Of a stretch of DNA of 64,000 nt, positions 37,498-37,789 are shown in pieces (the stretch's first letter is position 1; each line of letters begins with the position of its first letter). Under the pieces are notes generated by a model, which searched no databases, was not told where the DNA came from, and worked only from the letters and a program-made list of their open reading frames with translations. Source of the DNA: Alkalilacustris brevis (GTDB lineage Bacteria; Pseudomonadota; Alphaproteobacteria; Rhodobacterales; Rhodobacteraceae); the NCBI RefSeq assembly GCF_003350345.1, contig NZ_QNVJ01000064.1, forward strand, positions 186,001 through 250,000, written 5' to 3'. The translations under genes and the position numbers were made by a program.

Positions 37498-37789
37498 GCT
37501 GCCGTAGCTCAGTGGTAGAGCACTCCCTTGGTAAGTCATTGCCTCCTCGGCCGGAAACGGCCGAGTGCAAACCGCCCAAAGTCGGGGAAAGCTAACGGCC
37601 CTTGTGGCCCAGGCCAATCCCGAGCCAAGCCCGGCACATCCGGGAAGGTGTAGAGGCCAGACGGGCGGCACCTACGGGCCTTGGGGCCTATGGTGAAGGG
37701 ATGGTCCAGCTCGCAAACCCGAAGGGGCCGCGAAAGCGGTAGCGGGATGAAGGGAGAGGTCGACAGTTCAATCCTGTCCGGCAGCACCA
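37498..37789 (+). tRNA. tRNA-Thr(GGU), interrupted by an intron
   Basis: Exon 1 (37498-37532) has acceptor GCTGCCG, the D arm, anticodon stem CTCCC and TTGGT, ending with the anticodon GGT. Exon 2 (37750-37789) has AA, stem GGGAG, variable loop, T arm GACAG/CTGTC, acceptor CGGCAGC, A and encoded CCA. Joined, they make a 75-nt tRNA with every stem perfectly paired. The 217-base insert between positions 36 and 37 has group I intron features. The gene would not mature without splicing. It is followed by a terminator. Confidence 0.93.
37533..37749 (+). other. Group I intron (IC3-like) in tRNA-Thr
   Basis: The 217-nt intron starts after U36 and ends in G. P1 is GGU/AA pairing UUGCC with a GUCA loop (37530-37543), giving a U-G pair at the splice site. 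P2 is an 8-bp hairpin with GAAA loop (37546-37565). P3 is CCGCCC (37572-37577) with GGGCGG (37663-37668). P4 is UCGGG (37582-37586) with CCCGA (37619-37623). P6 (37630-37644), P7 GGCC (37655-37658) with GGUC (37703-37706), P8 (37669-37695) and P9 with GAAA (37728-37739) follow. CAATCCCGAGCCAAGCC (37615-37631) resembles the conserved core of cyanobacterial/plastid tRNA-Leu introns. No ORF lies within. Confidence 0.88.

Follow-up and report, generated by a model that had tools for sequence, protein, structure and literature searches.

Positions 37533–37749 of the window, the whole 64,000-nucleotide stretch of Alkalilacustris brevis DNA that was analyzed, hold a 217-nt group I intron with a tRNA-type (IC3-like) layout inside the gene for tRNA-Thr(GGU). 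We consider it very likely that this is a spliced intron in a resident tRNA-Thr(GGU), and that it belongs to a lineage of the Alphaproteobacteria that has been passed down by vertical descent and also through DNA exchange across orders. Group I introns in tRNA genes are a known kind of element; the tRNA-Thr(GGU) host, however, is apparently new, and joins the few bacterial tRNAs known to be interrupted. In the open-access literature searched, no description of a bacterial tRNA-Thr intron was found. The accessible part of one review makes no mention of a tRNA-Thr(GGU) host (PMC3984707), and neither does that of a second source, which lists fMet and Leu along with cases from alpha- and beta-proteobacteria (PMC4033280).

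The intron and its detection

When joined, the two exons (Table 1) form an exact 75-nt tRNA-Thr(GGU) with an encoded CCA, the insertion lying between U36 and A37. With introns allowed, ARAGORN reported tRNA-Thr(ggt) at 37498–37789 with a 217-nt intron at position 36; run on the window without introns, it missed this gene and reported only a tRNA-Glu. The Rfam model RF00028 (Intron_gpI) gave 26.5 bits over the intron region (E 8e-5), below the curated cut-off of 50 bits, which is a detection threshold and not a biological feature, and a search of the whole genome at that cut-off returned no match. Because both plain ARAGORN and the Rfam cut-off pass over the gene, its possible absence from the annotation is explained, and genomes that carry such an intron seem to be without a needed tRNA. 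The authors of tRNAscan-SE 2.0 did not design the program for detecting such introns, and in 36 genomes they attributed the lack of an fMet or Ile2 gene to introns of this kind (PMC8450103). Our own covariance model, R1, was built from related introns; it scored the window intron at 135.5 bits, this sequence being part of its training set, and found this one intron only across the genome.

The sequence-only reading had described a compact intron without an ORF, and this description held. The P2, P5, P6, P8, and P9 arms are short, and Pfam gave no match, to a homing endonuclease or otherwise, for either of the minus-strand ORFs (157 and 109 aa) that span the greater part of the intron. Plus-strand ORFs across it reach at most 61 aa, and a third minus-strand ORF (294 aa, 36695–37579) overlaps just the first 47 intron bases, the Pfam search having covered the other two.

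Table 1. Features of the interrupted tRNA-Thr(GGU) gene and its neighbor, in window coordinates
Feature	Position	Strand	Evidence or remark
murA (presumed name), conserved divergent neighbor by which the family's usual tRNA-Thr(GGU) locus is recognized; context only	35845–37113	-	Neighborhood comparison
tRNA-Thr(GGU) 5' exon, through anticodon G34 G35 U36, 3' end ...CTTGGT	37498–37532	+	Sequence, ARAGORN intron mode
P1: exon GGU + AA (37530–37534) with UUGCC (37539–37543)	37530–37543	+	Read from sequence
Group I intron, IC3-like, 217 nt, AAGTC...GGGATG; 5' exon terminal U, intron terminal G	37533–37749	+	ARAGORN, covariation, R1
P2 hairpin, GAAA loop	37546–37565	+	8/8 pairs with double changes, 78.3% of cells paired
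P3 (37572–37577 with 37663–37668)	37572–37668	+	98.8% paired, double changes at 4/6 pairs
P4 (37582–37587 with 37618–37623) and short P5 (37591–37592 with 37613–37614)	37582–37623	+	Covariation
P6 (37624–37626 with 37647–37649) and P6a hairpin (37630–37634 with 37640–37644)	37624–37649	+	Covariation
P7 (37655–37659 with 37702–37706), guanosine-site helix, pseudoknot with P3	37655–37706	+	99.8% paired
P8 (37669–37672 with 37692–37695)	37669–37695	+	100% paired, double changes at 3/4 pairs
P9 stem (37710–37714 with 37742–37746), two hairpins: P9a and P9b GAAA (37728–37739)	37710–37746	+	Covariation
tRNA-Thr(GGU) 3' exon with encoded CCA, AAGGGAG...CACCA	37750–37789	+	Sequence, ARAGORN intron mode

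Secondary structure and covariation

An IC3-like structure comprising P2, P3, P4, P5, P6, P6a, P7, P8, P9, and P9b was drawn from the window and counted on 80 aligned introns of tRNA-Thr, tRNA-Leu, and tRNA-Arg. In these, 93.5% of the cells were paired, against 80.5% after shuffling and 27–48% when the partners were slid by 1–3 columns, the slid control being biased in favor of a structure drawn from the window. Compensatory double changes were seen in 31 of the 49 core pairs, and none of 500 shuffles matched the real alignment on any of five measures; related sequences may beat shuffles even without a structure, and the double-change count is the stronger point. Energy folding of the single intron sequence gave a z of -1.3, weak evidence alone, and did not recover the family core.

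The pairing figure of P2 is partly lowered by misalignment. At the first P5 pair, 47 of the 80 introns have G-C and the other 33 have C-G, and two pairs of P7 carry double changes, in 23/80 and 24/80. A third P5 pair, as drawn, was unpaired in 61/80 and is to be dropped from the structure. Covariation supports the P3–P9 core with the P3/P7 pseudoknot by which group I introns are recognized.

GNRA loops on P2 and P9 are typical of IC3, and the GAAA loops that had been noticed on both arms are present at 37554–37557 and 37732–37735. The IC3 reference ribozyme, the tRNA-Ile intron of Azoarcus, is likewise compact, with GAAA loops on P2 and P9, and lies in the anticodon loop after position 36; its host tRNA and guide are different. 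IC3 introns have a simple short P5 and no P5abc extension (accessible part of PMC11835236), and the window intron has the same form. By its predicted structure the intron is IC3-like, as first proposed, in a comparison made only with the tRNA introns of proteobacteria.

Guide sequence and proposed splicing

Within P1, the guide GCC (37541–37543) pairs with exon GGU through U·G, G-C, and G-C, with U37532·G37541 at the splice site, and the helix is extended by the intron AA pairing with UU. A 5'-exon U paired with a guide G, and a terminal G (here G37749), are features of group I introns. The motif TGCC occurs within the first 20 nt of all 41 Thr introns, a count taken from an anchored search, as the free-register P1 script had misjudged the register in certain Thr and Arg rows; a terminal G is found in all 133 extracted introns, the extraction itself having required it. 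In other hosts the guide is different: G[AG]GU for exon GACUU in the Leu introns (4 bp in 27 of 27), GGUCU in those Leu introns that are shifted to after U33 (5 bp in 2 of 2), and GGG for exon CCU in the Arg introns. Since guide and exon change together between hosts, the family offers a favorable natural system for studying how group I introns switch targets.

In the precursor, exon GGU would pair with the guide GCC to form P1, with the U·G pair at the splice site. P7 would bind an external guanosine, which would cut after U36, and the freed 5' exon would attack after the terminal G, leaving a normal tRNA. Splicing is inferred here from the structure, and catalysis or self-splicing of the predicted intron from the family to which it belongs.

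The tRNA complement of the genome is relevant to this proposal. In the window genome (G000; 3.48 Mb, estimated 100% complete), Rfam found 36 uninterrupted tRNAs, among which ARAGORN, applied to all 36, recognized only the CGU and UGU tRNAs for Thr, and a search of the whole genome for an intact tRNA-Thr(GGU) pattern, with 3 mismatches allowed, gave 0 matches. By these genome searches, the interrupted gene is the sole tRNA-Thr(GGU) gene found. In six neighboring genes, 68 of the 107 Thr codons are ACC and 3 are ACT. Because no intact tRNA-Thr(GGU) was found elsewhere in the genome, splicing is very probably needed for reading ACC codons, unless tRNA-Thr(UGU) superwobbles.

An insert that inactivated the gene, leaving a degenerate intron in a pseudogene, would be in keeping with an Rfam score under the cut-off. 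We regard it as highly improbable, as the window intron can form every core helix, with compensatory changes seen in these helices among its relatives, the exons are intact and end in CCA, and the genome yielded no other tRNA of this specificity. A spliced intron is the reading that we retain below.

Distribution and the murA locus

With the 292-nt gene as BLAST query, matches over the gene were obtained in 4 of 293 relatives (G000, G003, G144, and G252, the last cut by a contig end) and in 3 of 394 family genomes (G000, G144, and G338); these counts are lower bounds, as divergent copies may be missed. An insert present in all related genomes would have counted against the sequence-only reading. 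Carriage was instead sporadic, with at least 4 carriers among 397 different Rhodobacteraceae genomes. For genome G001, of the same genus and 96% complete, there was no match to a tRNA-Thr(GGU) query, the gene being either absent from the assembly or otherwise interrupted.

On a wider scale, R1 detected an IC3-like intron in 49 of 385 Alphaproteobacteria; Thr(GGU) could be read as the host in 8 of the 385, and some R1 matches had no assigned host. An exact-pattern scan of 84,980 species genomes (GTDB) returned 55 stretches, 41 of them Thr(GGU) introns (one cut short) and 14 not. All 41 are in Alphaproteobacteria or unplaced proteobacteria, and the carriers include SAR116, Magnetovibrio, Roseomonas, Roseicella, Siccirubricoccus, Acuticoccus, Hyphomicrobiales, Rhodobacteraceae, and others. 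The insertion position is the same in all 40 complete Thr introns, with the pattern and the extraction both requiring exon GGT. Among viral contigs the Thr pattern had 5 matches, none of them a tRNA. Group I intron-like cores were also seen outside recognizable tRNA genes, in Zymomonas (loci L048 and L063) and in the viral contigs L102, L103, L105, and L106.

In the Rhodobacteraceae, tRNA-Thr(GGU) is mostly divergent from and adjoining a gene that we take, from its protein sequence, to be murA. Among 22 hand-picked genomes of the family, the murA-linked gene was intact in 15, interrupted in 2 (window and G003), and absent from that place in 5 (G001, G002, G004, G144, and G338). The 15 intact alleles differ from the window exons at 2–8 bases. 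As an intact tRNA-Thr stands at the same murA-linked place in relatives, the window intron interrupts the resident gene. Transfer of the whole gene, considered for the window on account of exons identical to those of Hyphomicrobiales, was set aside, since the intronless gene of G441, also of the Rhodobacteraceae, matches both exons at 100%. The situation is different for L032 (Pseudaestuariivita rosea) and L065 (a Rhodobacteraceae MAG), which share all 75 exon bases with each other and with two Acuticoccus genes and differ from the window exons at 11; this identity points to movement of the whole interrupted gene in those two cases.

Relationships among the introns

Over the aligned length, the mean identity of the window intron to 40 Thr introns was 73.6%, the closest of them reaching 85.2%. 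The corresponding means were 66.9% for 29 Leu introns and 65.1% for 9 Arg(CCU) introns, with best values of 70.8% and 68.3%. The core had been thought closer to tRNA-Leu introns, which was not borne out, its nearest relatives being Thr introns of Hyphomicrobiales. By BLAST, the best match outside the Thr introns was an Arg(CCU) intron, L006.

Three kinds of tRNA intron invite comparison. Those of tRNA-Leu(UAA), from cyanobacteria, plastids, and proteobacteria, have a similar IC3-like core, two GAAA loops, and a similar size, but they are inserted after U34 with the guide G[AG]GU, and their mean identity to the window intron is the 66.9% given above, against 73.6% for the other Thr introns. The group I introns of tRNA-Arg(CCU) in alphaproteobacteria are of the Agrobacterium type. 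They resemble the Thr intron in size and P3–P9 layout, and those found in this analysis lie at the same point, U36|A37, as had been remarked from the sequence; their guide, however, is GGG, suited to exon CCU, where the Thr introns have GCC for GGU, and they stand apart from the window intron in trees. Two introns of tRNA-Thr(CGU), L212 and L213 (host assigned by eye), share the amino acid, the IC3-like layout, and the position after U36, but have the guide GCG and are distant in the core tree.

For the 80-row tree, L055, L076, and L084 (duplicates of L003, L004, and L032) and the truncated L005 and L086 were dropped, and L001, which is the window itself, entered once as L002; the core tree used 100 of the 103 listed loci. 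In the 80-row tree, the Arg(CCU) introns clustered in a single clade (99/95) set among the Leu introns, with the majority of the Thr introns falling outside. The window intron paired with that of a Methylobacteriaceae MAG (99/71; 96/85 in a Thr-only tree), and in the core tree it belonged to a four-row clade with Hyphomicrobiales introns (100/98). The intron of the genus-mate G003 fell in another Hyphomicrobiales clade (99/98, 80-row tree). A single clade of the window and G003 introns was rejected in two data sets (p 0.037 and p 0.009), as was a single clade of the five Rhodobacteraceae Thr introns (p 3e-5). One origin of all Thr introns was not rejected in either data set (p 0.41 and 0.09), and a clade of Thr plus Arg(CCU) introns was not rejected in one (p 0.36) but was in the other (p 0.015). 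Two odd Thr introns, L075 and L049, were placed among the Leu introns, L075 grouping with the Leu intron L024 (97/88 in the 80-row tree, 94/82 in the core tree); between their guides AG is replaced by CC, with the letters on both sides kept.

Movement of the intron

For the recent history, these trees suggest that exchange between orders at the DNA level is a better explanation than reverse splicing, a claim that depends on short trees, MAG names, and clades put to the test once an earlier tree had been seen. We think it unlikely that a tRNA-Thr intron of ancestral Alphaproteobacteria was handed down by vertical inheritance only, followed by very many losses. Such a history would account for the spread of Thr introns across many orders and for the unrejected single origin, and the introns of the window and G003, 80.6% identical, have diverged much as the murA genes (81.8%), so that plain vertical descent would fit there too. 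Yet carriage was found in just 4 of 397 Rhodobacteraceae genomes (a lower bound), the introns cross orders in the trees, with the Rhodobacteraceae introns rejected as one clade, and L032 and L065 have the exons of two Acuticoccus genes rather than exons like those of the window.

The sequence-only reading had favored reverse splicing, and a recent arrival at tRNA-Thr(GGU) by that route, with a tRNA-Leu or tRNA-Arg intron in the same cell or a related one as its source, seems to us quite improbable. In the register chosen by the script, which was wrong for 3 of the 9 Arg rows, the Thr exon forms 1 bp with the guides of the 27 Leu and 9 Arg introns, so a direct jump would need a changed or shifted guide. 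Moreover, the window intron is most closely related to other Thr introns, its genome has intact, intronless genes for Leu(UAA), Arg(CCU), and Arg(UCU), and R1 finds no second intron there. On the other side stand the insertion position common to Arg(CCU) introns, the placement of L075 and L049 among Leu introns, and a GCC able to pair with the Thr exon in a shifted register nearby in 49 of 56 Leu and 18 of 23 Arg introns. Guide matching in any register is unspecific and was not used as proof against this route. We prefer a lineage that would reside mainly at the tRNA-Thr(GGU) of Alphaproteobacteria and be inherited vertically and by DNA exchange between orders.

Introns in other tRNA genes, plasmids, and phages

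IC3-like introns were also observed in further tRNA genes, whose identity was assigned by regular expressions or by eye, automatic splice-site joining having given ambiguous names. They comprise Lys(CUU) (L182, L185, L187, and L258), Lys(UUU) (L193, L204–L207, L211, L214, and L216), Leu(CAA) (L239, L251, L254, L208, and L209), Arg(UCU) (L015 and L230), and CAU tRNAs (L242, L243, and L252). Across these hosts the insertion lies at 33/34, 34/35, 35/36, or 36/37 of the anticodon loop. In the Leu(CAA) loci L239, L251, and L254, the 5' exon seems to end in C34, giving a C-G instead of a U·G at the splice site.

Whole interrupted tRNA genes are transferred as DNA, as seen directly in plasmids, E. 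coli, and a phage. An interrupted tRNA-Leu(UAA) of alphaproteobacterial type was present, at ≥80% of its length, in 1,257 of 72,556 plasmid records and 624 of 5,426 complete E. coli genomes. Its best chromosomal match among the 195 relatives searched was 86%, and its sequence hints at an alphaproteobacterial source. Two resistance plasmids of enterobacteria (L261:2929–3226 of NZ_CP023816.1, and L262, NC_004464.2) each have an unannotated copy, its intron IC3-like, close to aac(3)-IId. The Gordonia phage Daredevil (L263, NC_048021.1; actinobacterial host) has an unannotated tRNA-Lys(UUU) with an IC3-like intron. The Thr intron itself was not found at ≥80% coverage among the plasmid and phage records searched.

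A broader history may be put forward tentatively, as a possibility that we hold with some reserve. The Thr(GGU) anticodon loop may have been colonized repeatedly from Leu(UAA)-type introns, two bases of the guide being rewritten on each occasion (GAG to GCC) in step with the exon change from CUU to GGU. The family would have moved between at least nine tRNA species (Leu UAA and CAA, Arg CCU and UCU, Thr GGU and CGU, Lys UUU and CUU, and a CAU tRNA), invariably in the anticodon loop, and would travel between species as whole interrupted genes, some on plasmids or phages. If so, L075 compared with L024 would be an example of the guide rewrite.

Apart from the intron, Rfam matched RF01793 (ffh sRNA) at 4944–4996 of the window, on the minus strand, with 53.4 bits.
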